DNA of 44,611 bases, taken from positions 1 to 44,611 of the forward strand of contig SXHN01000073.1 in assembly GCA_005773635.1 (NCBI GenBank), given 5' to 3'. Position 1 is the stretch's first letter, and each line of letters starts with the position of its first letter. Below the pieces are notes generated by a model, which saw nothing but the letters and a program-made list of their open reading frames with translations, was not told the DNA's origin and did not search any database. A program made the translations under genes and the position numbers. This document shows, one piece after another, positions 4,022 through 31,517 of the stretch. This DNA is from Actinomycetota bacterium (GTDB lineage Bacteria; Actinomycetota; Acidimicrobiia; IMCC26256; PALSA-610).

Positions 4022-4168
4022 GTTCCCATCCTGAATTCCTCCCCGGCCGTCGCGCTACACCTCGCGTCGTGTCTCAATGGAATGTTGTTGATTCGGTGTC
4101 TTTGGCGATGGTGCTCGACCATGCGAACAAGTGTCGCGTTCCGGATGAATCACTTGCCTTTTACAAAG

Positions 4169-7706: not shown

Positions 7707-7721
7707 GTGCGAGGCTGCGGC

Positions 7722-8384: not shown

Positions 8385-8401
8385 CTCCCCAACACACCCC
8401 A

Positions 8402-14075: not shown

Positions 14076-15074
14076 CTATGCAACCGCAAACGCGTCGATT
14101 GTGGCTTGCACATCGCCGAGCGGATACAAGATTGGGCAGGTGCAGCCATCCGCAACGTACTGATCCACTCGGGCTCGAGCTTCAGCCGGCGTACCGGACG
14201 CGGTGATCATCTGCACGATCTCATCGGGCACCAATTTGCTCGCGGCTTCCACTTGTTCGTGGGTCGCAGGCCACGTCATAACCTCACCCACCGCGTCAAG
14301 CAAGCTCTGCGGAACACCGCTCGCTTTCATGATGTGCGGTTGCTGTCCGAGGTATTGAGTAACCATTAACCGAGCCATTTCGATGGCAGTGTCGTGATCT
14401 TCATGAACCGAACACACCACGAGTTGTGGGCGATCTATGTCGTCAATGGAACGTCCGGCTTTGGCTGCACCGATGGCGAGGTGTTCCATCGCTCGGCGGT
14501 TGTAGTCGGGGGCGACGAGATAGTTCAGCACAACGCCATCGGCGATCTCTCCTGTGAGCTCCATCATTTGCATACCGGTAGCGCCGATGTATATCGGAAC
14601 GTCTTTAGCACGCCGATCTTGGTACACGTAGTCGAGTTCGATGCCATCGAGATGTACGTATTGTCCGTCGAAGGTCACGGTTTCGTTGTGCAGCAGGGCG
14701 CGTACAACGGTCACGATTTCTCGCATCGTGGTGAGTGGCTTTGACCGCGTGATCCCAACCTTGGCGGCGAGCGGATCCCACCATGCGCCGATGCCAAGAA
14801 TCATGCGACCGGGTGCGAGATCGTCGAGCGTGGAAAACGTTGCGGCAAGACGGGCAGGATTACGGCTCCAACAGTCGACGACACCCGAACCGATCTTGAT
14901 GTGATCAGTCACCGAAGCGAACGCGGCCATGGGAACAGTTGCCTCGCGGACGAGGCGGCTTTCGGCTTGCCAGACCGCTGCGAATCCAGCGGCCTCAGCT
15001 GCTTGTGCAAACTCCATGCCCTCTCGAATTGGATGGGCATCTTGGAGATATAGGGCAACGGGATAGTTCATCAA
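14076..15074 (-). CDS. LLM-class F420/flavin-dependent oxidoreductase in the purine operon
   Basis: A luciferase-like TIM barrel of 332 residues. [20 protein letters not shown] is the first strand and helix, [26 protein letters not shown] the conserved second block, [20 protein letters not shown] the third, and [20 protein letters not shown] the fourth. These resemble methylenetetrahydromethanopterin-reductase-like F420 enzymes. It sits between ssnA and dpaL in a tight operon with an AAGGA site before the tandem ATGATG start. No LLM enzyme belongs to the E. coli uric-acid cluster. Two roles are conceivable: an F420H2-driven reduction of a purine intermediate, or an RutA-like oxidative ring opening. 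I cannot decide between them. Confidence 0.85.
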
Positions 15075-15080
15075 CAGTCC

Positions 15081-16142
15081 TTAAAGTCGTGCGAACAAGC
15101 GTTGCGATTGTTCGTGGGCAACGCGACGAATTTCGATTGGGTCGACACGCGTGGGGGAGCCGTCGCGCAATACCGTTTCTCCATCGATGACGACCTGCAG
15201 CGGCCGGATGTCGGTCGTGAATGCACTGCTCCACGGGTCGTTGGCGCGGTCGTAGTTCCATTCGATGATGTCGTTGGCGGCGTCAGGCACGAGATCTCGT
15301 CCCGTCGCCAACCAAGACCATGCGGTGTCGGGCGTAGCCGTGACGTCGACGCATCGTTGCAGTACGTACGCCAGACGGAACTCTTCGAACATATTGGCAC
15401 CGATGCCGTCGGTGCCGAGCGCGATCGGGTTCTGGAATCGGGCTGGATTGCAGTAGCCAACTGCATTATTGAGGTTGCTGCGTGGGTTGTGCACAATCGT
15501 TCCCCGCACGTTGGCCGCCTCGTCGAGATGTACTGCGTGTATGACCAGCCATTGGTGGTTGCTGAGCGATGCAATCTTCGACGAGGCATCGGCGTCGTCG
15601 AGTGATTCGGCCACGTGAATATGCACACCAACGTCATGGCGTTCCGCGAGATCTGCAGCTGCTTCGAGAGTGCCTTGCTCACACGTGAAGGCTGCGTGTA
15701 CTCCTACGTAGCCGCGACCCCCGGCGCGAAGGAATCGCTCGTTCTCCGCGAGACCGCGTTGCGCGCCCTGTGCGCCGTGACGATCGGTGACCCCATAGGC
15801 GCACACCACACGTACGCCGACTTCGGCGCACGCTTCGGCGATGACGTCGAGGCTGCCTTCGATCGCGTTTGGGGATTCGTGGTGATCGATAATCGTCGTG
15901 GTGCCACACTCAAGTGCTTCGAGCGCACCGAGCTTTGCTGACCACCGAATCATTTCAAGGTCGATCGCGCAGTCGAGCCGCCACCAAATTTGTTCGAGAA
16001 TTTCACGGAACGATGTCGGAGTGGAGGGTGGCGCAGGCATGCCGCGCGCGAGCGACGAATACAGGTGATGGTGCGCGCAAACCAAACCGGGTGTTGTTGT
16101 ACCCACGCCTATGCCCGTCGCATCGGTAGCGAGTTGCGCCAT
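15081..16142 (-). CDS. ssnA: SsnA-like aminohydrolase, shortened at both ends
   Basis: An amidohydrolase TIM barrel of 353 residues. TPGLVCAHHHLYSSLARGM, WWRLDCAID, IIDHHESPNAIEGSLD, VHNPRSNLNNAVGY and LGTDGIGANMFEE match E. coli SsnA block by block. Metal and catalytic residues are present: His24/His26, His174 or 176, His202 or 205 and Asp245. SsnA is about 440 residues. Here only 20 residues precede the HxH motif instead of about 55-60, and the segment after the barrel (the usual GxxADLxxxD region) is also missing, so the beta-sandwich is largely lost. The start overlaps the xdhD-like gene by 34 bases; a GTG at 16106 is an alternative start. SsnA belongs to the E. coli uric-acid cluster; its precise reaction is not settled. 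Confidence 0.8.
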   Translation of the reverse strand: MAQLATDATGIGVGTTTPGLVCAHHHLYSSLARGMPAPPSTPTSFREILEQIWWRLDCAIDLEMIRWSAKLGALEALECGTTTIIDHHESPNAIEGSLDVIAEACAEVGVRVVCAYGVTDRHGAQGAQRGLAENERFLRAGGRGYVGVHAAFTCEQGTLEAAADLAERHDVGVHIHVAESLDDADASSKIASLSNHQWLVIHAVHLDEAANVRGTIVHNPRSNLNNAVGYCNPARFQNPIALGTDGIGANMFEEFRLAYVLQRCVDVTATPDTAWSWLATGRDLVPDAANDIIEWNYDRANDPWSSAFTTDIRPLQVVIDGETVLRDGSPTRVDPIEIRRVAHEQSQRLFARL

Positions 16143-18676
16143 TCGCCGTCGAATTCATGTAATGCGGCGGCGACTGCGCCCGCGGTGGGAACCAATCCGA
16201 TTTCGCCGACGCCTTTGATGCCGTACGGCGCTCGCGGCTGCGGCACTTCAACCATGATGACGTCGATCGGCGGCACATCTTTGGCTCGCAATATGCCGAG
16301 GCTGCGTAGCGTCATGTTGGTTGGGCGGCCGTCTGCGTCGGCCGGGAAGTCTTCAGTGAGCGCGTAACCAAGACCCATGTGGACCGCGCCTTCGATTTGG
16401 CCCTCACACAGCAAGGGATTCATCGCTCGCCCTACATCGTGCGCTGCGACCACCTTGTTGATTGCTCCCGAGTCTCGGTCGATCGTCACTATCTGAGCGG
16501 CGTAACCAAATGCCGAGTGAATGATCGGCGATGCGAGGCCTTCAGACAGTGCATTTGTCCATTCCACGCGCCATTCGCCTTCGTAGTCGACGCCAATCTG
16601 GCAACCGTCTGCGAGCGCGGCCCGACATGCTTCTGCAACTGAGCCCGCGCCCATGAGCGTGCCGCGCGAACCAGTGGTTTGGCCCGCTCCGAGTTCACGC
16701 GTCGTGTCGACGACCACACGGATGCGCGCAGGATCGATCGCCAATTCTTCGGCAGCCACTTGCATCGCGACGGTATGAATGCCCTGACCCATCTCTGTCC
16801 AACAATGACGCACCTCAACGTTGCCATCAGCCCGAAATTGAACGACAGCCTTTGCGAGTTCTTTGAAGCCGTTGCCTAAGCCGCTGTTCTTTAGTCCTAG
16901 CCCAAGCCCTACCGCGTGTCCGGCTGCGCGAGCCTCGTCATACGCAGGTTTGATCGCATCGAGGCACGCCTTCGCTCCCGCGCAGCCGTCGTCCATGATC
17001 TGACCAGGACCCCACACTTCGCCGGGGTTAATCACATTGCGGTTGCGAATTTCCCAGCCTGAGATGCCGACGAGTTCCGCAAGCCGGTCGAGGGCACCTT
17101 CCATTGCGAACTGCGCTTGGTTCGCGCCGAAGCCGCGAAACGCTCCGCACACTGGATTGTTCGTGCGCGCGGCAACGGCCTCAACGTCGATTGAGGGAGT
17201 GTGATAAGGGCCGCTGGCATGCCCCGCGGCGCGTTCTAGCACCTTCATTCCGACGCTTGCGTAGGCGCCCGAGTCGCCGAGCATGCGGGCCCGCACGGCG
17301 GTGAGCATCCCAGCATCGTCGCACCCGACCTCGTAGTGCATCGTGATCGGATGACGCTTCGGGTGCATGATCAAACTCTCTTCGCGCGAGAGCGTGCATT
17401 TCACCGGTTGTTTTAGATGCCAAGCCGCGAGTGCCGCATGGGCCTGATTGCTCATGTCTTCCTTGCCGCCAAACGCCCCACCATTGCTCACCAGCTCGAC
17501 GGTCACTCGATCGCGGTCGACATTCAGCATTGACGCGATTTGATTGCGGTCGTCCCATACTCCTTGGCCACCCGAGTACACATGCAATGTTCCGTCGGGT
17601 TGCGGGACTGCAAGCGTCGATTCGGGTTCGAGAAACGCGTGCTCGATCCGTTGGGTTGAGAAGGTCTCGCGCACGACGTGCGTGCTCGCAGCCAAAGCGG
17701 CTTCCACATCCCCTCGGGCGTAGACCGAACGGGAAAGTACGTTGTTCTCCGTGCCCCACACCGCGATGTCGTCGCTTGCGACTGCAGCAATGGGGTTGGT
17801 CATTGGTGGAAGGACGTTGTATTGCACGTTGACGAGTTGCGCGGCGCGCCGTGCGGTTTCGCGATCGTCGGCTACGACAATTGCCATCACGTCACCGAGG
17901 TAGCTCGTACGCCCACCGACTGGAATCATCACCGGCCAATCGGTGTAGATGATGCCCACGCGTAATTCGCCGGGGATGTCGGCGGCAGTGAAGACACGCG
18001 TGACGCCGTCGATCGATTCGGCAGCCGAGGTTTCGATAGCGACGACCTCTGCGCGAGCATGCTGGGCCAACACGAGAGCGGCGTGCAGCATGCCAGGGAT
18101 ACGAATGTCGTCGACGTAACCGCGGTCGCCGAGCGCAAGTGATTCAGACTCGTATTTCTTGCCGCGATCGCCGATAGCGGCACCCAATGCGAGCGGTGTC
18201 ACATCGTCGCGTGCGACCATTTCGATGGCATCGAGGATTTTTACGTATCCGGTGCATCGGCACAGGTGCGATCCCAGTAGGCGCGCAACATCTTCGCGTT
18301 TGTCGGCTTTGCCTCTATCCACGAGTGACTTGGCTCGCATCACGATGCCAGGAGTACAAAACCCGCATTGCAACGCGCCGCAGGTTGCGAAGGCTTCGGC
18401 GTACTTTGCTCGCTCAGTATCCGCGACACCTTCGAGGGTTGTGATGGATCGGTTCTCGGCTTTGGCGAGCGAAACCTGACAGGCGACCACTGCCTTGTCG
18501 TCTAACAGCACCGTGCAGCATCCGCACTGACCGGTGGGTGAACAACCGTCTTTCGGCGACGTGATGTCGAGTTCGTCGCGGAGTGCAGCGAGGAGGTGTG
18601 GATGGTCGTCGCGGACCGAAACCTCGACTCCGTTGACTGTGAATGCCACCGAAGTGACCTCGGACGCTGTGCTCAT
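16109..18676 (-). CDS. xdhD: XdhD-type molybdenum hydroxylase (2Fe-2S plus Mo domains fused, no FAD domain)
   Basis: A protein of 855 residues in one chain. Residues 1-155 hold two [2Fe-2S] clusters (C45/C51/C54/C66 and C104/C107/C139/C141, in CGFCTPG and CRCTGY). The remainder is the molybdopterin domain: NGGAFGGKEDMSNQ, GAFRGFGANQAQFAMEG, EMGQGIHTVAMQ and, at the end, YGIKGVGEIGLVPTAGAV with the catalytic Glu. The FAD domain is absent, as in E. coli XdhD, and the C-terminus (EFDGEWRNSLPMRRA) resembles XdhD. XdhD-like proteins are tied to urate or selenium-linked purine breakdown; direction and substrate here are inferred. Its ATG overlaps the upstream stop (ATGA). Electrons could pass to the separate FAD subunit at 21577 or to an unknown partner. 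Confidence 0.87.
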   Translation of the reverse strand: MSTASEVTSVAFTVNGVEVSVRDDHPHLLAALRDELDITSPKDGCSPTGQCGCCTVLLDDKAVVACQVSLAKAENRSITTLEGVADTERAKYAEAFATCGALQCGFCTPGIVMRAKSLVDRGKADKREDVARLLGSHLCRCTGYVKILDAIEMVARDDVTPLALGAAIGDRGKKYESESLALGDRGYVDDIRIPGMLHAALVLAQHARAEVVAIETSAAESIDGVTRVFTAADIPGELRVGIIYTDWPVMIPVGGRTSYLGDVMAIVVADDRETARRAAQLVNVQYNVLPPMTNPIAAVASDDIAVWGTENNVLSRSVYARGDVEAALAASTHVVRETFSTQRIEHAFLEPESTLAVPQPDGTLHVYSGGQGVWDDRNQIASMLNVDRDRVTVELVSNGGAFGGKEDMSNQAHAALAAWHLKQPVKCTLSREESLIMHPKRHPITMHYEVGCDDAGMLTAVRARMLGDSGAYASVGMKVLERAAGHASGPYHTPSIDVEAVAARTNNPVCGAFRGFGANQAQFAMEGALDRLAELVGISGWEIRNRNVINPGEVWGPGQIMDDGCAGAKACLDAIKPAYDEARAAGHAVGLGLGLKNSGLGNGFKELAKAVVQFRADGNVEVRHCWTEMGQGIHTVAMQVAAEELAIDPARIRVVVDTTRELGAGQTTGSRGTLMGAGSVAEACRAALADGCQIGVDYEGEWRVEWTNALSEGLASPIIHSAFGYAAQIVTIDRDSGAINKVVAAHDVGRAMNPLLCEGQIEGAVHMGLGYALTEDFPADADGRPTNMTLRSLGILRAKDVPPIDVIMVEVPQPRAPYGIKGVGEIGLVPTAGAVAAALHEFDGEWRNSLPMRRA

Positions 18677-19584
18677 GGCGCGCCCTTTCGTTCAGTAATG
18701 AGGCCGTAAGCCTCTGGGCGTCGATAGCGGTCGAAATCGAAGAGTGTCTTGGTGTAGTGCGCGCCGCGGTCGAGGTCACAGTCAGCGACGATTACCTCGT
18801 CTTCGGTTGTAACGCATTGCGCAACGATCTCCCCAGAGGGCGCGATAATCGCGGATTGCGCAAGCGAGTCGACCCCTTCTTCGACGCCACCTTTTGCGAC
18901 TCCCACAACCCACATCCCGTTTTGGTATGCCCCCGCTTGCATGACGAGGTGGTTGTGGAACCCCGCGAGTGCGTCCTGCGATGGGTCGGGTGCGTAATGG
19001 ATTGGGGTGTTGTAGCCGATGAACGCAAGTTCGCAGCCTTGGAGAGCAAGTACTCGATACGTTTCCGGCCAGCGGCGATCGTTGCATAACGCCATTCCGA
19101 CCGTTCCGCCGAACGCATTCCACACATCGAAACGGTCTCCTGCTTCGAAATAGCGCCGTTCGAGGTGCTGAAACTTACGCCACGGTTCATGATCTTCGTG
19201 ACCAGGAACATGGACTTTTCGGTACTTCCCGATGATCTGGCCGTCGGCCGCAACGAGAATGGAGGTGTTGTAGTGGTGGCCATCGCTGAGCTCCGCATAG
19301 CCGAGATAGAACGCGATGCCCAGTTCTTTTGCAGTATCGAACAACGGTTGTGTATCCGCCGAAGGCATGGTGGTTTCGAAAAACGCGTCGATGTCGTTGG
19401 TGTGTTCGAAGTACCACCGTGGAAAAAATGTTGTGAGTGCCAGCTCAGGAAACACGACAACGTCAGCGCCGTCGGCGTGAGCCTCACGCATCATGGCGAC
19501 CAGGCGTGCCACGACGGCGGGCCGTTGCGACTCGCGCGCTATCGGCCCAAGCTGCGCAGCTGCTACGCGTACTACGCGACTCAT
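18673..19584 (-). CDS. N-carbamoyl-D-amino acid hydrolase-like nitrilase-fold enzyme
   Basis: A carbon-nitrogen hydrolase of 303 residues, the same length as Agrobacterium D-carbamoylase (304). It shares long blocks with that enzyme, such as VFPELALTTFFPRW, GYAELSDGHHYNTSIL, KYRKVHVPGHE, FQHLERRYFEAGD and CNDRRWPETYRVLALQG. The catalytic triad is Glu47, Lys123 and Cys167. It would release ammonia and CO2 from an N-carbamoyl amino acid, the product of the hydantoinase at 11542. Both ends overlap neighbours by ATGA, showing tight coupling. The frame is open up to 19725, but that extension overlaps the preceding gene and lacks similarity. Confidence 0.88.
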   Translation of the reverse strand: MSRVVRVAAAQLGPIARESQRPAVVARLVAMMREAHADGADVVVFPELALTTFFPRWYFEHTNDIDAFFETTMPSADTQPLFDTAKELGIAFYLGYAELSDGHHYNTSILVAADGQIIGKYRKVHVPGHEDHEPWRKFQHLERRYFEAGDRFDVWNAFGGTVGMALCNDRRWPETYRVLALQGCELAFIGYNTPIHYAPDPSQDALAGFHNHLVMQAGAYQNGMWVVGVAKGGVEEGVDSLAQSAIIAPSGEIVAQCVTTEDEVIVADCDLDRGAHYTKTLFDFDRYRRPEAYGLITERKGAP

Positions 19585-20834
19585 GGGCTGCTCTCGTTCG
19601 CCAGAGTGAAAAGGACGTGCAATAACACATTCGCTCCCGCTTCGAGATCCGCGGCTTCGGTGAACTCGGCGACGTTGTGGGAAAGACCCTTGACGCTCGG
19701 TACGAAAATCATTGCCGCCGGGCACGTGCGAGCAATCATTTGTGCGTCGTGTCCTGCCCCTGACGGCATGCGCCGAAGCGTGTTGCCTTGATCGTGAGCA
19801 ACAACCTCAACGAGGTTGATGATGCGTGGATCAAACTCGACGGGCTCAAAACGCGCCGTTGAACGCGACGTAATTGTGACGCCTTCGGCTTCTGCGATTT
19901 CTTGCATTGCGGTTGCGACATCTCGTTCTACGCGGGAAAGGGCGTCGTTATCGGTGTTGCGGAGATCCATTGTGAGTACTGCGCGCGCGGCCACAACATT
20001 TACAAGGTCCGGGTGCAGCTGGATCGAACCAACTGTGCCAACCTGATCGCCGCCCGCGGAGCCAACGATTTCGCGGACTCGCACAGCGAGGAGTGCTGCC
20101 GCGTAACCCGCGTCATGGCGCAACCGCATGGGAGTCGTACCGGCGTGATTCGATTGCCCAGTGACTATGACCTCCTGCCACGAAATGCCCTGTACCCGTT
20201 CAACAACGCCGATAGTTATGCCCTCAGCCTCGAGCACCGGACCCTGTTCGACATGAAGTTCTACGAACGCGTGGGGCACAATGCCGGGGCATGGCGAGGG
20301 TCCTGCGTAGCCGATGCGGTTGAGCTCGTCGCCGAGTCGAGTACCGTCGATCCCGGGCAAGTCGAGGGCCTCTTCCACGCTCATTCCGCCCGCGTATACG
20401 AGCGAACCCATCATGTCGGGGTGGAATCGTGCGCCTTCTTCGTCGGTGAAGAACGCCACCGCGATTGAACGTTCGGTCGTGATGTTCGCCGCGGCAAGCG
20501 TTTCGAGCACTTCCAGGCCCGCCAGGACTCCGTAGTTGCCGTCGTATTTTCCACCGGTGCGCACGGTGTCGATATGGGAGCCCGTCATTACGGGGGCAAG
20601 TGCAGGGTCGCGGCCTTCACGCACCGCGATGACATTGCCGATCGCATCGATCTGGACATCGAGACTTAGATCTCGCATCCATGCAACCACGAGGTCCCGC
20701 CCGGCTTTGTCTTCGTCGGTTAAGGCGAGGCGACACACGCCGCCGCCTTCGATCGCTCCTACTTCCGCGAGGCTAAAGATCCGGTCGAGCAGCCGCGCGC
20801 GGTCAACGCGCAACGACGCGTGCTCATTGGTCAC
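19581..20834 (-). CDS. M20-family N-carbamoyl-L-amino acid / allantoate-type amidohydrolase
   Basis: A binuclear-metal hydrolase of 417 residues of the hydantoinase/carbamoylase group. The ligands are His87 (TGSHIDT), Asp98 (YDGNYG), Glu132/133 (FTDEEGARF), His194 (VELHVEQGPV) and a C-terminal His in GLSHNVAEF. NHAGTTPMRLRHDAG is the small-domain dimerisation motif. Relatives cleave N-carbamoyl-L-amino acids, ureidopropionate, allantoate or ureidoglycine; sequence alone does not choose. E. coli's cluster holds another M20 protein, YgeY, in the comparable place. This is the first gene of the minus operon. Its GTG start lies 7 bases after a -10 box, so the operon mRNA appears to be leaderless. 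Confidence 0.85.
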   Translation of the reverse strand: MTNEHASLRVDRARLLDRIFSLAEVGAIEGGGVCRLALTDEDKAGRDLVVAWMRDLSLDVQIDAIGNVIAVREGRDPALAPVMTGSHIDTVRTGGKYDGNYGVLAGLEVLETLAAANITTERSIAVAFFTDEEGARFHPDMMGSLVYAGGMSVEEALDLPGIDGTRLGDELNRIGYAGPSPCPGIVPHAFVELHVEQGPVLEAEGITIGVVERVQGISWQEVIVTGQSNHAGTTPMRLRHDAGYAAALLAVRVREIVGSAGGDQVGTVGSIQLHPDLVNVVAARAVLTMDLRNTDNDALSRVERDVATAMQEIAEAEGVTITSRSTARFEPVEFDPRIINLVEVVAHDQGNTLRRMPSGAGHDAQMIARTCPAAMIFVPSVKGLSHNVAEFTEAADLEAGANVLLHVLFTLANESSP

Positions 20835-20840: not shown

Positions 20841-20869
20841 ATCATCGGCATTTTTTTACAAAATGTCAA
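20841..20869 (-). promoter_or_regulatory. Promoter of the minus-strand catabolic operon (leaderless)
   Basis: Read on the minus strand: a perfect -35 TTGACA (20869-20864), a 17-base spacer and -10 GATGAT (20846-20841), then the GTG start of the carbamoylase seven bases on at 20834. Transcription would begin at the start codon. The -35 lies inside the operator at 20854-20870, so a bound regulator should block polymerase. Confidence 0.6.
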
Positions 20870-20870
20870 G
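20854..20870. promoter_or_regulatory. Operator copy 1 in the divergent promoter
   Basis: TTTTACA-AAA-TGTCAAG, a 17-base interrupted palindrome. The right half is the full consensus half-site (extended TGTCAAGCA). It shares 16 bases exactly, in reverse orientation, with copy 2 at 21539-21555, and its TTTACA-N3-TGTCAAG pattern with copy 3 at 26443-26459. Confidence 0.7.
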
Positions 20871-20912: not shown

Positions 20913-21152
20913 ATGGCGAGAGTTGAAATTGAGTTCACGGTTGAGCCGTTTGCTGTGGGCGAACCGGGGCCCCATGTTCAGGCGGCGATTGCCGCGGCCC
21001 GTACTGCGGGATTTGACCCCGAGATCGGCCCGTTTGGCACGATGTTGCGGGCCGAAATGAAACCAGGTGCAGACGTCGTGAGCGCGGTGGTTGCGGCGGC
21101 GATGGCGGCGGGCGCCGAACGGCTTTCGGTGACGATTACGGCGATCGACTGA
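20913..21152 (+). CDS. Thiamine-binding-like small protein (MTH1187/YqgV family)
   Basis: A protein of 79 residues. MARVEIEFTVEPFAVGEPGPHVQAAI, EIGPFGTMLRAE and the closing alanine-rich helix plus strand (RLSVTITAID) fit the ferredoxin-like MTH1187/YqgV fold (DUF77, thiamine-binding). The start at 20913 excludes an N-terminal extension to 20877 that would cover the promoter. It is the first gene of the plus side and lies 3 bases before the regulator gene. Why a putative thiamine or pyrimidine binder leads a purine-type cluster is unclear; it might sense a heterocyclic ligand. Confidence 0.75.
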   Translation: MARVEIEFTVEPFAVGEPGPHVQAAIAAARTAGFDPEIGPFGTMLRAEMKPGADVVSAVVAAAMAAGAERLSVTITAID

Positions 21153-21155: not shown

Positions 21156-21518
21156 GTGGCCGCTAAACACCCGCTGATCGTTGCGCTCGAGCCACTCGCG
21201 GAGGTACTAGGAGCCGACTTGGTATCACTCTCCAAACTGCACGAAGGCGACATACCGCTGCACTGGGAGGGTGAGTTGGTGGGCGCGCTGCGGCTCCCCG
21301 GACTGGCAGTTGCACTCGATCGGTTGATTCGCCAGGTTGAAGCGGAATTGGGTGGGACGCTCAGCAAGCTGTCACGTGAAGACAAACAAAGTGCAGTCAA
21401 AATTCTCGAAGAGCGCGGGGCGTTTACCTTGCGTAAGAGCATTGAAGACGTCGCCGATGCGATGGGCGTGAGTCGAATTACGATCTACAACTACCTCAAT
21501 GCGATCCGTACTCAATAG
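21156..21518 (+). CDS. Compact YheO/DauR-type HTH transcriptional regulator
   Basis: A protein of 120 residues with a GTG start. Residues about 68-118 (LSREDKQSAVKILEERGAF, then VADAMGVSRITIYNYLNAIR) match the C-terminal HTH of YheO/DauR regulators (HTH_22). Full-length members are over 200 residues and carry an N-terminal PAS-like YheO domain; here only about 65 residues precede the HTH, so the sensor is reduced or replaced. It is the only DNA-binding protein in the cluster. Copies of a shared palindrome lie about 300 bases upstream and 20 bases downstream, so it is the natural candidate regulator (inference). It may autoregulate through copy 1. Confidence 0.72.
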   Translation: MAAKHPLIVALEPLAEVLGADLVSLSKLHEGDIPLHWEGELVGALRLPGLAVALDRLIRQVEAELGGTLSKLSREDKQSAVKILEERGAFTLRKSIEDVADAMGVSRITIYNYLNAIRTQ

Positions 21519-21538: not shown

Positions 21539-21569
21539 CTTGACATTTTGTTAAGCAGCGTGTTTGCTA
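21539..21569 (+). promoter_or_regulatory. Operator copy 2 and promoter of the xanthine dehydrogenase operon
   Basis: CTTGACA-TTT-TGTTAAG at 21539-21555 is a palindrome with one mismatch, extendable by two matching bases each side (TG...CA). Its TTGACA (21540-21545) is a perfect -35. A weak -10 (TTTGCT or TTGCTA, 21563-21569) with 17-18 base spacing ends 7-8 bases before the ATG at 21577, so this mRNA too looks leaderless. Confidence 0.65.
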
Positions 21570-21576: not shown

Positions 21577-22413
21577 ATGATTGCAGCCGCACCTTTGTCA
21601 CTTGCCGACGCGCTGCGCGCGATCGCCGATGATCCCTTCGCCACGGTCATCGCCGGTGGAACAGACCTCATGGTGCAGATCAACGCAGGGCGGCGACCAG
21701 TGACTTCGTTGGTATCACTGCGAAATGTGGCGGAATTGAAGGGTTGGTCCACCGAGTCCGGCAACCTACGGATTGGCGCGGGATGCAGCTACTCAGAGCT
21801 GGAACGGCCCGACTTCGCGGCGATCATGCCAGCATTAGCCCAGGCGGCGCGAACGGTTGGTTCGCCACAGATTCGCAACGCTGGAACGATTGGCGGCAAC
21901 CTAGCGACGGCGTCGCCCGCGGGTGACACCTTGCCTGTCCTCGTGGCGCTCGATGCACAACTCGAGATTGCCTCGTCCTCGGCCACACGATCGATTGCGA
22001 TCAGCGATTTTCTCGTCGGGCCGAAGCAAACCGATTTGCGCCAGGGCGAACTGATCGTCGCGATTTCGGTGCCGGTGTTGCGCGGCGCACAGGAGTTTTT
22101 GAAAGTAGGCACCCGCAACGCGATGGTGATTTCGGTCGCGAGTGTTGCCGTGCTCGCGGATCTTGATGCACAAGGTGTTCGTATCGGGCTCGGGACAGTC
22201 GGCCCGACGGTGCTGCGCGGCGCGCGGGCAGAAGCCTGGACCCGGTCCAATATCGACTGGGATTCAAATCGCGTTGTTGGCAACCTCGACGAATTCGTTG
22301 CACTCGTTCGCAGCGATTCTCATCCCATCGATGATCATCGTTCTACGAAACGCTACCGATCGCACGCGATAGGTATTTGTGCGCGTCGCGCGCTGCAACG
22401 AGTGTTTCCATGA
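21577..22413 (+). CDS. Xanthine dehydrogenase-family FAD-binding subunit (CoxM-like)
   Basis: A protein of 278 residues of the vanillyl-alcohol-oxidase-type FAD fold. TVIAGGTDLMVQINAGRR is the first FAD pyrophosphate motif and IRNAGTIGGNLATASPAGDTLP the second. IGAGCSYSELE is the conserved strand between them. It passes electrons from the iron-sulfur subunit to NAD or another acceptor. The C-terminal end (after about residue 250, rich in Arg, Ser and His) is divergent and overlaps the next gene, so the tail may be drifting. It is the first gene of a three-subunit set; its TGA overlaps the ATG at 22410. It could also serve the XdhD-type fusion, which lacks FAD. Confidence 0.88.
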   Translation: MIAAAPLSLADALRAIADDPFATVIAGGTDLMVQINAGRRPVTSLVSLRNVAELKGWSTESGNLRIGAGCSYSELERPDFAAIMPALAQAARTVGSPQIRNAGTIGGNLATASPAGDTLPVLVALDAQLEIASSSATRSIAISDFLVGPKQTDLRQGELIVAISVPVLRGAQEFLKVGTRNAMVISVASVAVLADLDAQGVRIGLGTVGPTVLRGARAEAWTRSNIDWDSNRVVGNLDEFVALVRSDSHPIDDHRSTKRYRSHAIGICARRALQRVFP

Positions 22414-22916
22414 CCGATTCGTATTCGCCGCATCCGGCGTATCGGCTCATGGTTAACGGTGAGCCGCACGATGTTTCGGACGCGTGGATCGGTGAGAGCC
22501 TGTTGCACGTCTTGCGTGAGCGGTTGGAGCTGCCGGGAGCAAAAAGTGCGTGCGAGCAAGGCGAATGTGGATCGTGTTCGGTACTTGTCGACGGCGTGTT
22601 GGTGTGTGCGTGTCTTGTGGCCGCGGTGACTGTGGCTGACGCCGATATTCGGACTGTTGAATCATGCGGGTCGTCGCAGTCGCTGTCGGTAGTGCAGCAG
22701 GCATTTGTTGACGCCGGCGCAGTGCAATGCGGTTTCTGTACACCAGGGCTCATCATGGCTGTGCAAGATCTGATCGACCGCGGCATCCAATTGCCACACG
22801 CATCACCATTCGATGAATTAGCGACGAGAGAAGCGTTGTCGGGAAACTTGTGCCGGTGCACTGGATACGGACGCGTCCTCGACGCCGTCGCGCGAGCCGT
22901 GGAGGCGTCACGATGA
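22410..22916 (+). CDS. Xanthine dehydrogenase-family 2Fe-2S subunit (CoxS-like)
   Basis: A protein of 168 residues. The plant-type cluster is bound by Cys48, Cys53, Cys56 and Cys68 (CEQGECGSCSVLVDG) and the second by Cys107, Cys110, Cys148 and Cys150 (QCGFCTPG and CRCTGY). The length is standard for separate small subunits. ATGA overlaps at both ends link it to the FAD subunit and the large subunit. The start at 22410 rather than 22377 is chosen from this overlap and from MTDSYSPHPAYRLMVNG resembling family N-termini. Confidence 0.9.
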   Translation: MTDSYSPHPAYRLMVNGEPHDVSDAWIGESLLHVLRERLELPGAKSACEQGECGSCSVLVDGVLVCACLVAAVTVADADIRTVESCGSSQSLSVVQQAFVDAGAVQCGFCTPGLIMAVQDLIDRGIQLPHASPFDELATREALSGNLCRCTGYGRVLDAVARAVEASR

Positions 22917-25087
22917 CCGCGGGGGGATTGAAAACGAGATCGCCGCGGCTTGGTGAATCGGCGCCTCGCCCCGACGGCATTCCCAAAGTGCTCGGCGAAT
23001 TCGCGTTTGGGAACGATCTTTGGGCCGACGGCATGTTGTGGGGTAAGACACTGCGCGCACCGCATCCGTCGGCGCGCATTGTGTCTGTTGACATCGGGCC
23101 TGCGCTTGCGATCGATGGAGTAGCCGCAGTGCTGACTGCCGCTGATGTTGCTGGCAAGAAAACGTACGGCTTGGAAACTCCGGATCAGCCGGTGTTTGCC
23201 AGCGAAGTTGTGCGGTACATGGGTGAACCCATCGCCGTAGTTGCCGCAGATCATCCCGAGACAGCTCGCCGTGCTGTCGCGGCGATCGAAGTGGTGTACG
23301 AACTCACGACGCCGCTCGTCGATGCGGATCTCGCGGCCGAGGGCACGCCGATTCACCCCGACGGCAATGTGTTTCGCCATCTCGTTATCCGCCATGGCGA
23401 TCCGACCGTACAAGGCGAGGTCATTGTTGAAGGTACCTATGAAGTTGGTATGCAAGACCAAGCGTTTATGGGCCCCGAGAGCGGCCTTGCTATTCCCGAC
23501 GATGATGGTGGCGTAGAACTCTTCATCTCAACGCAGTTCCTGCATGTAGACCGTGATCAGACTGCGGCTTGCCTAGGCCTCGCACCCGAAAAAGTGCGGG
23601 CAACCGTTGCAGGGACCGGCGGTGCGTTCGGCGGTCGAGAAGACATCTGCCTTCAAGTGCATGTGTGTATGTTGGCGTTGCACACCGGACGTCCGGTGAA
23701 GATGCTGTACAGCCGCGAGGAATCGTTTCTTGGCCACGTGCATCGACACCCGGCCAAGCTCTGGTATCGCCATCACGCCAAGCGGGACGGCACATTGGTC
23801 AACGTCGAAGCCAAGCTGGTCTTCGATGGTGGCGCGTACGCATCGACCAGCAGCGCGGTACTTGCGAATGCGTCGTGTTTCGCCGGAGGCCCGTACCTGA
23901 TCCCGAATGCGTTCATCGACGGTTGGGCTGTTCGCACGAACAATCCACCCTGCGGAGCCATGCGCGGCTTCGGCGCGGTGCAAACGTGCTTCGCTCACGA
24001 AGCCCAAATGGACAAACTGGCCGCCGCGCTTGGCATGGATGCGGTTGAGCTACGGCTGCGCAATGTGCTGAAAACGGGCGACGCGATTCTCACTGGCCAG
24101 GTGCTCACCGGCGCGGTTCCAGTTGAGGAAGTCATTCGTGCGTGTGTGGAATCGCCGTTGCCCCCGAAAGCGACAGGCGCAATGCTGGAACGTCCCGGAG
24201 GTGCCGGCCGAACCGCAGATGCCCATCACGTGCGACGCGGCGTGGGATTTGCGGTCGGGTTTAAAAACCTCATGTTTTCAGAGGGTTTTGACGATTATTC
24301 CACTGCTCGCGTGCGTCTCCAAGATGGTGTGGCCACGGTGCACTGTGCTTGCGCAGAAGTAGGTCAAGGCTTCGTTACCTTGGTGCAACAAATTGCGCGT
24401 GAAGTACTCAACGTTGACGATGTGATTGTTGCACCGGCCGATACGTCGGTGGGGTCCGCGGGGTCGACCAGCGCAAGCCGCCAAACCTGGATGAGTGGAG
24501 GTGCGGTCGAAGGCGCGTGTCGAATGGTGAGCGAGCAAATGGAGCGCAATCCAGGTGCGTCGTACTACGAGGCGACGTTTGAGCACCATCACGCACCCAC
24601 CGAACAACTCGACGAAAACGGGCAGGGCAATGCGCACGTTTCGTTCGCGTTCGTAGCACATCGCGCGGTCGTCGATGTCGATGTCGAACTTGGGCTCGTG
24701 AAAGTGATCGAAGTTGCTACGGCGCAGGATGTAGGGCGAGTGCTCAACCCGTTGCAGGCACTGGGCCAAATCGAAGGCGGAATTGCGCAGGGGGTGGGGC
24801 TTGCGGTGATGGAAGAAATGTTGGTGATTGACGGAGTTGTTCGCAACGCGAACTTCACCGATTACCTGATTCCCACCACACTCGATATGCCGAACGTGCT
24901 CGTTGCGTCCTTGATCGAACAGCCCGAACCGGGTGCACCGTTTGGAGCGAAAGGTATCGGCGAACCGCCAACTATTTCGTCGACTGCCGCGGTCGCGGCA
25001 GCAATTCGTGACGCGACCGGTGCCCCAGTGATCAGGGTTCCGGTGCGCCCCGAACACCTTGTGTTCGCCGCAGACCTGGTGTCGTGA
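22913..25087 (+). CDS. Xanthine dehydrogenase-family molybdopterin-binding large subunit (CoxL-like)
   Basis: A protein of 724 residues. RPDGIPKVLGEFAFGNDLW opens the aldehyde-oxidase a/b hammerhead domain. GTGGAFGGREDICLQVH, RTNNPPCGAMRGFGAVQTCF, EVGQGFVTLVQQIAREV and GSAGSTSASRQTWMSGGAV are molybdopterin and active-site loops. GAPFGAKGIGEPPTISSTAAV holds the catalytic glutamate. Glutamine and Arg positions resemble purine-oxidising rather than CO-oxidising enzymes, and no CO-dehydrogenase active-site loop is visible. It probably hydroxylates hypoxanthine or xanthine to urate (context-based). It overlaps the small-subunit stop by ATGA. Its last base, the A of TGA, starts the next ATG. Confidence 0.88.
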   Translation: MTAGGLKTRSPRLGESAPRPDGIPKVLGEFAFGNDLWADGMLWGKTLRAPHPSARIVSVDIGPALAIDGVAAVLTAADVAGKKTYGLETPDQPVFASEVVRYMGEPIAVVAADHPETARRAVAAIEVVYELTTPLVDADLAAEGTPIHPDGNVFRHLVIRHGDPTVQGEVIVEGTYEVGMQDQAFMGPESGLAIPDDDGGVELFISTQFLHVDRDQTAACLGLAPEKVRATVAGTGGAFGGREDICLQVHVCMLALHTGRPVKMLYSREESFLGHVHRHPAKLWYRHHAKRDGTLVNVEAKLVFDGGAYASTSSAVLANASCFAGGPYLIPNAFIDGWAVRTNNPPCGAMRGFGAVQTCFAHEAQMDKLAAALGMDAVELRLRNVLKTGDAILTGQVLTGAVPVEEVIRACVESPLPPKATGAMLERPGGAGRTADAHHVRRGVGFAVGFKNLMFSEGFDDYSTARVRLQDGVATVHCACAEVGQGFVTLVQQIAREVLNVDDVIVAPADTSVGSAGSTSASRQTWMSGGAVEGACRMVSEQMERNPGASYYEATFEHHHAPTEQLDENGQGNAHVSFAFVAHRAVVDVDVELGLVKVIEVATAQDVGRVLNPLQALGQIEGGIAQGVGLAVMEEMLVIDGVVRNANFTDYLIPTTLDMPNVLVASLIEQPEPGAPFGAKGIGEPPTISSTAAVAAAIRDATGAPVIRVPVRPEHLVFAADLVS

Positions 25088-26382
25088 TGTCGTCGCGGAT
25101 GGTGCTGCGCGGAGCTCGGTATCCCGGAGACATCGCATTCCGCGATGGCTATATCGAAGCGGTTGGTGAGATCTCAGCTCAACCCGACGACGTGGTCGTG
25201 AACTGTGAGCAGACAGTTGTAACTGCGGGATTCGTCAATACGCATCATCACTTGTATCAATGGATGACGCGCGGGCGGGCCACAGGTTGTGATCTTTTTG
25301 GTTGGTTGCAAACCTTGTATCCGGTGTGGGGTCGCCTCGACGTGGACGATGTGTACGCGGCTGCGCTGGTTGGGCTCGGCGAACTTGCACTGACGGGGTG
25401 CACAACCGCAGCCGACCATCACTATCTCGTGCCGCGCGGCGATGATTCGGTGTTCGACGCGATTGTGCAAGCTGCGAAGGTTGTAGGCATTCGCCTCCAT
25501 CTATCTCGCGGATCGATGGATCTTTCGAACAAGGATGGTGGCCTGCCACCCGACCACGTGGTGGAAGATCTCGATGCGATTCTCGCTTCGACGCAACGAG
25601 TCATCGACACGCATCACGACGGTGTCATGGTGACCGTTGTTGTTGCGCCGTGCAGCCCGTTCAGCGTTTCCGAACAACTCATGGTGGAGTCGGCCGCCTT
25701 AGCGCGTCGCCATGGTCTGCATCTTCATACGCATCTTGTCGAGACGATTGAAGAGGAACATCACTGTCTCGAACGCTTTGGACGGCGGCCCGTTGATGTA
25801 TTGGATGAGTGGAACTGGATTGGCCCTGATGTATGGGTCGCGCATGGCATTCATCTCAACGACGCAGAGGTTGCTCGGCTCGGTCAACAGGGCACAGGCG
25901 TGGCGCACTGTCCGAGTAGCAACGGGCGACTGGGTGCCGGAATGTGTCGCGTCGTCGACCTTCGCCTCGCCGGGGCACCAGTCGGCCTTGGCGTCGACGG
26001 TGTTGCAAGCAACGAGGTGGGTGGGCTCTTTCCTGAGCTCCGTCAAAGCCTCATAACGGCACGACTTCGGGCAAACGACCCGGCGTGCTTCATGCCAGGA
26101 GACGCCATTTACGTTGCGTCGCGAGGTGGTGCGCAATGCCTGGGCCGCGCAGACATAGGGGCAATTGCTCCAGGCCAGCGAGCAGATTTTTCCATCTGGG
26201 ATGTCGGGGATCTTGACGACATGCAAGATGTCGTGGCGGGGCTTGTGCTTGGCCCGGATCGGCGCGCGCGCGATGTGTACGTCGGGGGAAATGCGATAGT
26301 TCGCGACGGTCTACTGACGGCGAGCGATCACGTGGCCGCTCGTCGTGCACTTGCACTACGCGCGAAGCGCCTCTGGGAGTAG
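25087..26382 (+). CDS. 8-oxoguanine deaminase-like amidohydrolase
   Basis: A TIM-barrel aminohydrolase of 431 residues. VTAGFVNTHHHLYQWMTRG, DLFGWLQTLYPVWGRL, GCTTAADHHYLVP, LSRGSMDLSNKDGGLPPD, APCSPFSVSEQLM and GVAHCPSSNGRLGAGM follow 8-oxoguanine deaminase proteins closely. Metal ligands include His53/His55, His in LHLHTHLVE, His in VAHGIHLND and Asp in GLGVDGVASNE. The reaction in the family is 8-oxoguanine to urate plus ammonia, which feeds urate into the neighbouring pathway. Related guanine- or triazine-type deaminases are the main alternatives. ATG 25087 overlaps the previous stop by one base (TGATG); a GTG three bases earlier is also possible. Confidence 0.8.
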   Translation: MSSRMVLRGARYPGDIAFRDGYIEAVGEISAQPDDVVVNCEQTVVTAGFVNTHHHLYQWMTRGRATGCDLFGWLQTLYPVWGRLDVDDVYAAALVGLGELALTGCTTAADHHYLVPRGDDSVFDAIVQAAKVVGIRLHLSRGSMDLSNKDGGLPPDHVVEDLDAILASTQRVIDTHHDGVMVTVVVAPCSPFSVSEQLMVESAALARRHGLHLHTHLVETIEEEHHCLERFGRRPVDVLDEWNWIGPDVWVAHGIHLNDAEVARLGQQGTGVAHCPSSNGRLGAGMCRVVDLRLAGAPVGLGVDGVASNEVGGLFPELRQSLITARLRANDPACFMPGDAIYVASRGGAQCLGRADIGAIAPGQRADFSIWDVGDLDDMQDVVAGLVLGPDRRARDVYVGGNAIVRDGLLTASDHVAARRALALRAKRLWE

Positions 26383-26601
26383 CCAGCTGTGGGAAGAGTG
26401 GTAGATGAGGTTTGAAACTTGGCTCGCGGGCTGGACAAGCTTGTTTACAGTTTGTCAAGATAAGAATTCAGACGTGTGAAATCACGTGCTGTACTCGTTT
26501 GGCTTTCGAAAAACCGAGTAGAACTCGCGGCACAGAAATTGTAAGAACTTGCATGGGCCTCGCCTGCGTAAGAAAACCAGCCCATCCTGAAGGGGGATGT
26601 A
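26383..26601 (+). promoter_or_regulatory. Leader region of the BMP transporter operon
   Basis: This 219-base gap holds operator copy 3 (26443-26459), an imperfect hairpin with TACTCG and CGAGTA arms (26492-26520) and an AGGGGG ribosome binding site at about 26591. Unlike other starts here, the transporter mRNA appears to have a long leader. I find no match to known purine riboswitch consensus and no confident -10 box. Confidence 0.4.
26443..26459. promoter_or_regulatory. Operator copy 3 upstream of the nucleoside importer
   Basis: GTTTACA-GTT-TGTCAAG has the same spacing and half-sites as copies 1 and 2 (consensus nTTkACA-N3-TGTyAAG). It lies 143 bases before the lipoprotein start, in the only long gap of the plus-strand gene run. 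Confidence 0.65.
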
Positions 26602-27741
26602 GTGAAACGAACTGCAAAGATTGGTGCTGCGGCACTAGCGCTCACACTCGGCCTTGCCGCGTGTGGGAGCGACAAAGAGAAGGTCGACGCTGGTGGCGGC
26701 GACAAGACGACCACCACGGCTGGTGAGAAGCCAGCCGGCGCACTCAAGGTGGCGTTCGTCTACATCGGCCCAGTTGGTGATGGCGGCTGGACTGATCGTC
26801 ACGACAAGGGCCGTGAGGAGATGGTCGCGAAGCTCGGCGACAAAGTTGAAGTCACCGTTCTCGAAAACATCTTGGACAACGCTGCATCAGAAGCAACATT
26901 TCAAAAGCTCGCCCGCGACGGCAACAAGCTGATCTTCGCAACCTCGTTCGGTTACGGCGACCCGATGTTGAAAATCGCTGGTGACTTCCCCGACACCTGC
27001 TTCCAATGGGCAACCGGCTTCAAGACTGCTGACAACCTCGGCACGTATTTCGGTGCAGCTGAAGAAGCCCGGTACTTGTCGGGAATTGCTGCGGCGCACG
27101 CCAGCAAGAACGGCAAGATTGGGTACGTTGCGGCGTTCCCGATCCCCGAAGTGCTGCGTGGCATTAATGCGTTTACGCTCGGTGCCCGTTCGGTGAACCC
27201 CGCGGCGACCGTCCAGGTCGTGTGGACGTCTACCTGGTTCGACCCCAAGGTTGAAAAGGAAGCGGCCGAAAGTCTGCTCGCGGAGGGCGTCGATCTCCTC
27301 GCTCAACACCAAGACTCGACTGCAGTTGGCGAGGCAGCGAAAGAAAAGGGTGCGAAGTGGGTTGGCTACAACGACGATCAGTCGAAAGTGGCTCCCGAAG
27401 CATGGCTGACGGCTCCAATTTGGAACTGGGGCGGCTACTACACCAAAGCTGCAGAGTCGGTGCTTGGTGGCAAGTGCGATAACAGCCAGTACTACGGAAC
27501 GATGGCAGACGGGCTGGTTGGGCTCGCTGATTTCGGTTCGTCGGTGGATCAGGCAACGAAGGACCACATCGAAGCGGTGAAGAAGACCATTCTCGATGGT
27601 TCGTTCAAGCCGTTTACTGGCCCGATCAACGACCAAAGTGGTAAAGAAATCTTGAAGAAAGACGAAGTCGCGGAGTTGGGAGCATTGCTCGGCACCGACT
27701 ACTTCGTTGAAGGCGTGATCGGCGAGATTCCGAAGCAGTAG
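26602..27741 (+). CDS. BMP-family ABC transporter substrate-binding lipoprotein
   Basis: A lipoprotein of 379 residues: a signal peptide with lipobox LAAC (lipidated Cys21) and a short Lys/Gly/Thr linker. The periplasmic-binding fold opens with KVAFVYIGPVGDGGWTDRHDKGRE, a classic basic-membrane-protein (BMP/PnrA/Med) motif. FATSFGYGDP, GYVAAFPIPEVLRGINAF and AQHQDSTAVGEAAKEKG follow. BMP proteins bind purine nucleosides in characterised cases, which fits the cluster. The GTG start has AGGGGG about five bases upstream. A strong hairpin after its stop suggests it is made in excess over the ATPase and permeases. Confidence 0.9.
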   Translation: MKRTAKIGAAALALTLGLAACGSDKEKVDAGGGDKTTTTAGEKPAGALKVAFVYIGPVGDGGWTDRHDKGREEMVAKLGDKVEVTVLENILDNAASEATFQKLARDGNKLIFATSFGYGDPMLKIAGDFPDTCFQWATGFKTADNLGTYFGAAEEARYLSGIAAAHASKNGKIGYVAAFPIPEVLRGINAFTLGARSVNPAATVQVVWTSTWFDPKVEKEAAESLLAEGVDLLAQHQDSTAVGEAAKEKGAKWVGYNDDQSKVAPEAWLTAPIWNWGGYYTKAAESVLGGKCDNSQYYGTMADGLVGLADFGSSVDQATKDHIEAVKKTILDGSFKPFTGPINDQSGKEILKKDEVAELGALLGTDYFVEGVIGEIPKQ

Positions 27742-27787
27742 TGCTTTGACCGATCCACAACCTTCACATCTTCAATATGAGAAGGAT

Positions 27788-27815
27788 GGTCGCCCGGGCA
27801 TGAGCCCGGGCGACC
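27788..27815 (+). terminator. Intercistronic hairpin (attenuator or mRNA stabiliser)
   Basis: A perfect 12-bp GC-rich stem, GGTCGCCCGGGC, with an ATGA loop, 46 bases after the lipoprotein stop. No U-tract follows. Such hairpins between binding-protein and ATPase genes commonly terminate part of the transcripts or protect the upstream mRNA. Confidence 0.7.
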
Positions 27816-27832
27816 TCGCGTCTGCGCTGCCA

Positions 27833-30543: not shown

Positions 30544-31517
30544 TCGGTTCCTTCGCTTCGTTCCTTGCGACTTCGGGCATCAATACCAACGTCTGGGTGG
30601 TGGGTTTGGCGTCGGCGGTGAGCTTCGCGATGCCGATCTTGTTCGCTGCGGTCGGGGAAATCCTCTGCGAACGATCTGGGATTGTCAATCTTGGCGTGGA
30701 AGGGATGCTGCTGTGCGGAGTCGTCGCCGCCTTTCTTGCCTACGACGCATCGGATAGTGCTGCGCTTTCGATGGTGTGCGGACTTCTTGCCGCCGGCGCA
30801 CTTGCGCTTGTCCATGCGTTCTTGTGCATCACCTTGCGATCCAACCAAACAGTAAGTGGTTTGGCGCTGGTGATCTTCGGTGCTGGCGTATCAAACTTCG
30901 TTGGTGAACCCGTCGAAGGCAAACAGATCGAAGCTGCGTTCACAGATTTGCGAATTCCTGGGCTGCATGACTTGCCTGTCGTAGGGCCTGTGTTGTTTCA
31001 CCAAAATGTGTTGGTGTATGTCTCGGTGCTCGTCGTCATTTCGGTCGCGTTCTATATCAACCGCACCCGACCGGGTTTGGCCCTTCGTGCAGTTGGCGAG
31101 TCGCCTGCCACGGCCGACGCGCAGGGAATCTCGGTATCCAAGGTCCGTTACGCGCACGTTGTAATTGGGGGAATGTTTGCGGGCCTTGGTGGCGCCTACA
31201 TCGTGCTTGTGGATGGACCGGCTTGGAATCAAGAGAACACGACGGGGGGCATCGGTTGGATCGCGCTCGCGTTAGTGGTGTTTGCTTCATGGCGCCCCGG
31301 CCGAGTGATGTTCGGAGCCATTGCGTTCGGTTTCGCGTTGCGCGCGAATTTCACGTTGCAAGGCGCGCAGATCACGTGGTTCCCAGCTGAGGTATTGCGC
31401 ATGATGCCTTACGTGCTGACGGTGGTGATGCTCATCGCGGTTTCGATCACTGATGTGGGCAACAAACTTGGCGCTCCCGCTGCCCTCGGTCGTCCGTTCG
31501 TGCGCGACGAACGTTAG
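30540..31517 (+). CDS. BMP-type ABC transporter permease 2
   Basis: A membrane protein of 325 residues, NupQ/YufQ-like. ILFAAVGEILCERSGIVNLGVEGMLL is the hallmark sequence, and LALRAVGESPATADAQGISV is the EAA-like ATPase-contact loop. About eight to nine hydrophobic segments are visible. A GTGA overlap joins it to permease 1. With 26602, 27833 and 29344 it completes a four-component importer. Confidence 0.88.
   Translation: MIGSFASFLATSGINTNVWVVGLASAVSFAMPILFAAVGEILCERSGIVNLGVEGMLLCGVVAAFLAYDASDSAALSMVCGLLAAGALALVHAFLCITLRSNQTVSGLALVIFGAGVSNFVGEPVEGKQIEAAFTDLRIPGLHDLPVVGPVLFHQNVLVYVSVLVVISVAFYINRTRPGLALRAVGESPATADAQGISVSKVRYAHVVIGGMFAGLGGAYIVLVDGPAWNQENTTGGIGWIALALVVFASWRPGRVMFGAIAFGFALRANFTLQGAQITWFPAEVLRMMPYVLTVVMLIAVSITDVGNKLGAPAALGRPFVRDER

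Follow-up and report, generated by a model that had tools for sequence, protein, structure and literature searches.

A small HTH_22 protein and its Thiamine_BP-fold neighbor as a proposed two-part regulator of purine catabolism in Acidimicrobiia

Introduction

What could a DNA-binding protein of only 120 residues sense, and which genes would it control? The question is raised by a 44,611-nucleotide stretch of an Acidimicrobiia genome (assembly GCA_005773635.1, contig SXHN01000073.1; called the window here, at its full length), in which a helix-turn-helix protein is encoded amid purine genes, as an earlier note on this DNA had recognized. That note took the protein for a YheO/DauR-type regulator with a PAS-like sensor shrunk to about 65 residues, and suggested in an aside that the thiamine-binding-like protein next door might sense a ligand. 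Purine-responsive regulators of catabolism are known, namely HucR/PecS-type MarR proteins, PucR and AllR, and their domains are unrelated to those of the two proteins considered here.

Results

Two adjacent genes

The two genes lie in the same orientation, and the stop codon of the first ends 3 nt before the GTG of the second.

20913..21152 (+): 79-aa Thiamine_BP-fold protein, proposed sensor half (PF01910, 30.2 bits, cut-off 24.9)
21156..21518 (+): 120-aa HTH_22 protein, proposed DNA-binding half (GTG start; PF13309)

The HTH_22 domain of the 120-aa protein is complete and C-terminal, as the earlier note had read it: PF13309 matches residues 54-115 over profile positions 2-63 of 63 (E 2e-20; 73 bits, cut-off 29.6), and this is the sole PF13309 match at E <= 0.001 in the source genome (3.56 Mb, 95% complete). 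Structure prediction, proposed in that note as a check in which a fold lacking a helix-turn-helix would count against that reading, returned helices at residues 50-65, 74-86, 91-103 and 107-119 that are in line with an HTH. PDB sequence searches with the protein or its profile gave nothing convincing (best E 0.32 and 0.077), Foldseek found no PDB chain at E <= 0.001 for the model (best 0.54), and VIA-align 2 reached only Z <= 3.5, so the HTH assignment rests on Pfam and the predicted helices.

The N-terminal part is a different matter. The roughly 46-53 residues ahead of HTH_22, fewer than the earlier note had allotted to a PAS-like sensor, have zero Pfam matches at E <= 10. The PAS_6 domain (PF08348) that defines YheO/DauR-type regulators was found neither in the protein nor in the source genome, in a search whose E. 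coli control was positive, and profile-profile alignment (hhalign) of the 120-aa family with PAS_6+HTH_22 proteins is confined to the HTH part. On a profile built from the pair family itself, 17 pair-type loci score 1e-42 to 1e-55 and L082 and L085 score 1e-26 to 1e-28, whereas seven PAS_6-type proteins of the phylum sample, Pfam-checked as such for L093 only, score 1e-7 to 1e-12. The N-terminal module is predicted to form a helix (6-18) and strands (21-23, 33-37, 40-46) and conserves W37, G39 and R46; it may be a docking element for a separate sensor.

The 79-aa protein is likewise the sole match to its family, PF01910, at E <= 0.001 in the source genome, and this Thiamine_BP type carries a conserved signature, E-F-x-x-E-P-F...H-V...G-P-F. 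We modelled the homologous domain of a relative in which it is fused to HTH_22 (L062; pLDDT 89, pTM 0.52). All 14 of the best Foldseek matches of this model are chains of the DUF77/Thiamine_BP type, and 8 reach E <= 0.001 (among the matches, 1yqh has 1.5e-4, 1lxn 2.6e-4 and 1vk8 1.2e-3), and the Thiamine_BP half is accordingly predicted to adopt the ferredoxin-like fold of the MTH1187/TM0486 type. A caveat is that the fold match is by itself unspecific, because the Z scores that VIA-align 2 gives DUF77 chains (8.4-8.6) are matched by those of ferredoxin-like folds unrelated to them (best 9.1).

Pairing and fusion in relatives

We searched genome contigs with the 120-aa protein and kept the best 80 of 100 loci encoding a relative (L001-L080), whose titles are mostly those of Acidimicrobiia or other Actinomycetota MAGs. 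Within these best 80, L001-L045 encode a stand-alone HTH_22 protein of 113-136 aa, and all 35 of L046-L080 carry a Thiamine_BP-like domain and HTH_22 in one ORF, with the Thiamine_BP domain N-terminal. (In later scoring L019, one of the former, was taken as a single open frame together with its Thiamine_BP.) A Pfam scan of four fused proteins put both domains over the cut-off in three, L062, L047 and L072; the fourth, L050, reached 19.8 bits with Thiamine_BP, which is below that cut-off. The stand-alone proteins tell the same story: with a profile made from the fused domains and the window's 79-aa protein, a Thiamine_BP ORF was found upstream, on the same strand and at most 177 nt away, in 44 of the 45 loci. 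The exception is L007, which has no Thiamine_BP gene within the fetched stretch and whose HTH_22 gene, in the region 7000-8400, adjoins a carbamoylase. Two subsets were set apart, A2 (the window plus 40 of L001-L045) and A3 (26 of the 35 fused relatives). Since fused relatives carry both domains, the aside that the thiamine-binding-like neighbor could be a ligand sensor gains ground from sequence comparison.

Because this search is biased to close relatives, we drew an independent sample of 198 genomes of the class. HTH_22 exceeds its cut-off in 47 of them, this Thiamine_BP type occurs in 47 at E < 1e-20, a limit chosen after the search result had been seen (51 at the looser E <= 0.001), and 46 have both (Fisher p 8e-43, with the relatedness of the genomes left uncorrected). 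The protein of the one genome with HTH_22 only (L114) reads as the PAS_6 type. At the 46 HTH_22 loci that were fetched, the window excluded, a Thiamine_BP gene is present in the same stretch in 40: upstream in 30, fused in 2 and downstream or nearby in 8 (directly downstream in L113, L122, L124 and L139, further along in L115, L118 and L134, and on the opposite strand in L125). In L112, L127, L140, L145 and L150, it is placed on a different contig or at a distance above 8 kb.

Split, fused and reordered forms thus all exist among relatives. A tree of 131 rows comprises 84 with Thiamine_BP upstream, 38 fused, 5 downstream and 4 apart, for which parsimony counts 11 changes; this is a quick tree of 150 columns in which 29 of 117 inner branches are starred, and the starred branches alone force 1 or 2 changes per group. 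A link that persists over several gene orders favors function over chance neighborhood, and from this near-obligate association of sequences the 79-aa and 120-aa genes are almost certainly a functional pair.

Purine gene context

The pair stands between a divergent operon on the minus strand and genes for a xanthine dehydrogenase (XDH) and an importer on the plus strand.

11542..12921 (-): dihydropyrimidinase/hydantoinase, HyuA-like (TIGR02033, 480 bits, cut-off 393)
12931..14061 (-): diaminopropionate ammonia-lyase, YgeX-like (NF006058, 320 bits, cut-off 276)
14076..15074 (-): luciferase-like (LLM) oxidoreductase, probably F420-dependent (PF00296; F420 subfamilies below cut-off)
15081..16142 (-): SsnA-like amidohydrolase (best NCBIfam models SsnA, below cut-off)
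16109..18676 (-): XdhD-type (selenium-dependent XDH-like) molybdoenzyme (TIGR03311, 846 bits, cut-off 830)
18673..19725 (-): carbon-nitrogen hydrolase of the nitrilase superfamily (PF00795; ORF overlaps its neighbor, start approximate)
19581..20834 (-): hydantoinase/carbamoylase-family amidohydrolase, allantoate amidohydrolase-like, first in the divergent operon (TIGR01879, 398.5 bits, cut-off 204)
21577..25087 (+): three-subunit xanthine dehydrogenase, FAD, 2Fe-2S and Mo (Mo subunit TIGR03196, 816 bits, cut-off 784; FAD and 2Fe-2S subunits match XdhB/XdhC models below cut-off)
25084..26382 (+): amidohydrolase, deaminase-like (PF01979)
26602..31517 (+): Bmp-type ABC importer with binding protein, ATPase and two permeases (PF02608, PF00005, PF02653 twice)

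The amidohydrolase at 25084..26382 shares 77.5% identity with its counterpart in L129; its label as a deaminase is based on Streptomyces-type matches of 47-51% identity and on one record in which the gene at the same place is annotated as 8-oxoguanine deaminase. In the source genome, uricase has no match and YgfK none over its cut-off (best 179 bits, cut-off 835). A reductive urate-degradation cluster has been described that comprises XdhD, YgfK/UacX or an F420-LLM, SsnA, HyuA and YgeX (PMC12507026, text available in part). With its XdhD-type, SsnA-like, HyuA-like, YgeX-like and LLM genes, the window's gene set resembles that pathway; the difference is that the available text uses no word that starts with 'regulator', and a regulator pair is added here.

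The same source, as far as its text was available, reports replacement of YgfK by F420-LLM for Chloroflexota (PMC12507026). In the Acidimicrobiia window, an F420-type LLM lies beside SsnA- and YgeX-like genes with no YgfK over cut-off, and LLM genes also occur in L122, L129, L137, L142 and L143.

This context is shared by many relatives. Of the 46 class loci, 28 have at least two purine marker genes, as do 13 of the 14 phylum loci. None of 20 control stretches, placed arbitrarily in six of the class-sample genomes, has two, and one of them had a single hit. 'Two or more' can here be one gene, as the markers overlap in homology (XdhD/XdhMo, SsnA/Deaminase). The 16 class loci with no purine marker gene are L114, L139 and 14 loci of one family, f4 (L116, L117, L119-L121, L123, L126, L128, L130-L133, L140 and L147), which groups with Ilumatobacter in the tree and whose upstream sites all differ from the operator core described below at 2 or more positions. 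Without purine markers or a close operator, the f4 pair indicates that such a pair can serve something else, and by sequence the f4 branch may have changed its regulatory target. Loci of the f4 type have an M20 peptidase-family gene divergent to the pair, a single sequence cluster in L003, L004, L006, L010 and L011 whose M20 assignment was Pfam-checked in L006 only; a HAD-family gene follows the pair in L006 and apparently also in L003.

Two further HTH_22 proteins, L169 and L170, are encoded near xanthine dehydrogenase genes. Their N-terminal part looks different, no Thiamine_BP was found with them, and they possibly represent a third sensor type on HTH_22.

Candidate operators

A palindrome with the consensus TTNACA-N3-TGTNAA recurs in the gaps of the purine cluster.

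20854..20870: operator 1, separating the divergent carbamoylase operon (-) from the sensor/HTH operon (+); 1 mismatch to CTTNACANNNTGTNAAG
21539..21555: operator 2, ahead of the XDH FAD-subunit gene at 21577; 0 mismatches to CTTNACANNNTGTNAAG
26443..26459: operator 3, in the gap that precedes the Bmp-type transporter gene (26602); copy of CTTNACANNNTGTNAAG

The first two flank the 120-aa gene, which bears out the earlier observation that it lies between two operator copies. Within the window alone the count is weak, with 3 palindromes against 0.87 expected and 9 of 100 shuffles reaching 3. Genome-wide the case is stronger: 4 copies of the core TTNACANNNTGTNAA are present in 3.56 Mb, and 3 of these fall within gaps of the purine cluster, compared with 1 occurrence of the reversed pattern and about 1 expected from base composition. 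For 3 of the 4 sites to fall within a given 5.6 kb, P is 1.6e-8, the stretch having been picked afterwards. The fourth core site, TTGACATCATGTCAA (C122:111800-111814; L081:4001-4015), precedes an unrelated-looking ORF for a 223-aa membrane-protein-like product.

Between 20700 and 21700 there is a single sigma-70-like promoter match (0.3 expected from shuffles), on the minus strand, and its -35 is the TTGACA half-site of operator 1. On the other side, the operator core lies 44-58 bp ahead of the start codon of the sensor/HTH genes. By sequence statistics, then, the palindrome is found at what would be the pair's own and its target promoters. 

Relatives carry the palindrome at the same place. 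The 250 bp that precede the module contain it, with at most 2 mismatches, in 52 of 80 sequences (79 relatives plus the window; L034 was dropped for too little upstream sequence), compared with 2.3% of 250-bp stretches drawn at random from these loci; the other 28 sequences have no good operator within those 250 bp. Counting from the first base of the operator, a candidate divergent start codon is reached after 25 nt in L055, L056 and L059, and one lies 38 nt from the operator in L048, L049 and L051-L053. In a close relative, L129, a site occupies the gap between the deaminase-like and Bmp genes, as operator 3 does in the window.

Across 12 relatives scanned genome-wide we counted 24 sites, 13 of them beside the pair, against 1 for the reversed pattern; these relatives had been chosen for an operator beside the pair, so that only rarity elsewhere and second sites are informative. 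Of the 11 sites away from the pair, one is that of L129 just mentioned and five are one conserved site, TTTACAGTTTGTAAA (on either strand), in L192-L196 near 3283-4079. It is flanked by a match to the window's carbon-nitrogen hydrolase in L193-L195 and by another carbon-nitrogen hydrolase-like ORF in L192, L194 and L196, and this gene is likely a second regulon member in five related genomes, as far as sequence conservation tells. Five sites away from the pair remain, and no marker gene was seen at the four that were fetched (L197-L200). We conclude that the palindrome is very probably the operator of the HTH_22 pair, as its distribution in sequence suggests.

The pair at a second urate pathway

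The pair also accompanies a urate pathway of another kind. In L045 (Wenjunlia, Streptomycetaceae), it lies ahead of HIUase and uricase genes identified by Pfam. A family that groups with L045 in the arrangement tree, f32, has the pair with HIUase/uricase genes in 7 of 8 loci by tblastn (L158-L160 and L162-L165; not L161). In annotated records, the pair occurs with uraD, uraH and pucL in Streptomyces angustmyceticus (NZ_CP104320) and in Tsukamurella tyrosinosolvens (NZ_LR134452), where the partner is annotated 'thiamine-binding protein'.

The Acidimicrobiia operator pattern was not found upstream of the pair in Streptomyces-type loci. A related palindrome, TCAACA-N3-TGTTGA, is present in 10 of 12 Streptomyces/Tsukamurella-type loci, none being found in the scanned stretches of L161 and L203. 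In 9 of the 12 it follows the HTH gene at a distance of at most 200 bp, a downstream location recognized only after all dyads had been listed, and in Tsukamurella it lies in the upstream region. Each of eight f32 genomes has 2 to 5 copies (21 in total; control 0), and hybrid sites, TCAACA-N3-TGTCAA, occur in L115, L124, L145 and L150 of the class sample.

Some second copies of TCAACA-N3-TGTTGA lie just past the 3' end of glxR (L159, L160, L206, L208) and, in L163, about 500 nt past gcl. We considered control of glxR and gcl by these copies and dropped the idea, as each lies beyond the 3' end of the gene concerned. In L204, L207 and L211, the TCAACAGCCTGTTGA copies are inside a 158-aa ORF and probably coincidental.

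Discussion

Overlaying gene order, fusion, operators and purine context, we propose that the pair is probably a bipartite one-component regulator of purine (urate) catabolism, composed of a Thiamine_BP-fold sensor and an HTH_22 DNA binder and probably acting as a repressor, a reading that comes from comparing sequences. The 79-aa protein would act as the sensor and form a complex with the HTH_22 protein, which would dimerize on TTNACA-N3-TGTNAA. When no inducer is present, the complex would cover the promoters of the divergent catabolic operon, of XDH and of the importer, causing repression, and would also autoregulate its own genes. Binding of a purine intermediate, most likely urate or xanthine, to the Thiamine_BP-fold protein would then release the complex from DNA. 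The physical complex and its binding to DNA are our inference.

As to the sign of control, we consider repression reasonably likely. Occlusion is the simplest reading because the divergent promoter match has an operator half-site as its -35 and sites lie near candidate divergent start codons. The same parts with the opposite sign, an activating pair, would be compatible with the core 44-58 bp before the sensor/HTH start codon, a position that activators also use, but would have to accommodate that overlap with the -35 and the divergent start candidates 25 nt away in three relatives; we regard activation as somewhat unlikely.

For the ligand, we lean toward urate or xanthine, because one and the same pair is used at two urate pathways with only the first metabolites in common. 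Another candidate is suggested by the family itself, whose members bind thiamine or the pyrimidine precursor HMP. If the Thiamine_BP protein sensed thiamine, TPP or HMP, it would couple purine breakdown to thiamine status, as the Pfam name might imply and as might the presence of TM0486 (1vk8), titled a putative thiamine biosynthesis/salvage protein, among the structural matches. A glyoxylate carboligase, partly annotated as thiamine pyrophosphate-dependent, is encoded near the pair in the two Streptomyces and Tsukamurella records, which slightly raises this possibility. However, no thiamine gene is among the window genes scanned or the named shared neighbors, and Rfam gave zero matches at gathering scores in 10-33 kb and hence no TPP riboswitch there. 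The pair adjoins urate genes of two different pathways, and in an alignment the conserved E-P-F, H-V and G-P-F of this Thiamine_BP type differ from the MTH1187 residues. Sensing of thiamine or its relatives therefore seems unlikely.

The roles within the pair could also be reversed, with the HTH_22 protein sensing the ligand through its own N-terminal module and the Thiamine_BP protein as an accessory subunit. The conserved W37, G39 and R46 would fit this arrangement, as would the HTH_22 genes with no Thiamine_BP found near them (L007, L140, L145, L150), but a Thiamine_BP gene is present elsewhere in the genomes of L140, L145 and L150 and is found in 46 of 47 HTH_22 genomes overall. Moreover, among the best 80 of 100 loci encoding relatives, the match to 26 of the 35 fused proteins starts at query residue 39 or beyond, so that these lack the module yet keep Thiamine_BP; a remnant of the module may persist, by sequence, in others such as L048 and L052. 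We judge this role for the HTH_22 protein quite unlikely. A degenerate YheO/DauR regulator with a shrunken PAS domain, finally, has the HTH_22 domain in common with our protein and is very improbable, and we rejected it: PF08348 is absent from protein and genome, hhalign aligns the HTH part alone, and the PAS_6-type proteins score far lower on the pair-family profile.

The proposed Thiamine_BP/HTH_22 regulator can be placed among known systems. It shares the C-terminal HTH_22 DNA-binding domain with YheO/DauR-type regulators (PAS_6 + HTH_22), whereas the window protein is without PAS_6 and has as its proposed sensor a domain of Thiamine_BP fold, either fused to it or on a chain of its own. With Thiamine_BP/DUF77/UPF0045 proteins (MTH1187, MJ1052, TM0486, YkoF), it has in common the profile and the predicted fold of the fused relative's domain; unlike them, the window type is paired or fused with a DNA-binding domain, has its own signature and stands in a purine context. 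To HucR/PecS-type MarR proteins, PucR and AllR it is probably alike in controlling local urate/purine genes by a pathway metabolite, and it differs in that sensor and DNA binder may here be separate genes. Among the open-access matches listed, no Thiamine_BP + HTH regulator was found, which leaves its absence from print unproven, and a Streptomyces PAS-domain regulator, in the part of its description available, is different from the Thiamine_BP/HTH_22 pair (PMC10717218).

Taken together, these observations give a modest edge to the idea of a new class of switch, in which a DUF77/Thiamine_BP fold would serve as urate/xanthine sensor of HTH_22, covalently or as a separate chain, with one operator grammar, YYNACA-N3-TGTNRR, across Acidimicrobiia and Streptomyces, governing two chemically different urate-degradation pathways. 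A domain known mainly as 'thiamine-binding' is thereby tied to a DNA-binding partner and a defined operator, so that its function can be tested. With its split, fused and reordered forms, the pair offers a natural series in which to follow ligand signal transfer between separate chains, and a small urate-responsive pair with a known palindrome, if true, could serve as a biosensor. For the organisms themselves, the pair is a candidate for the control of urate breakdown both in Streptomyces and in uncultured Acidimicrobiia, also at clusters like that of the reductive urate pathway.
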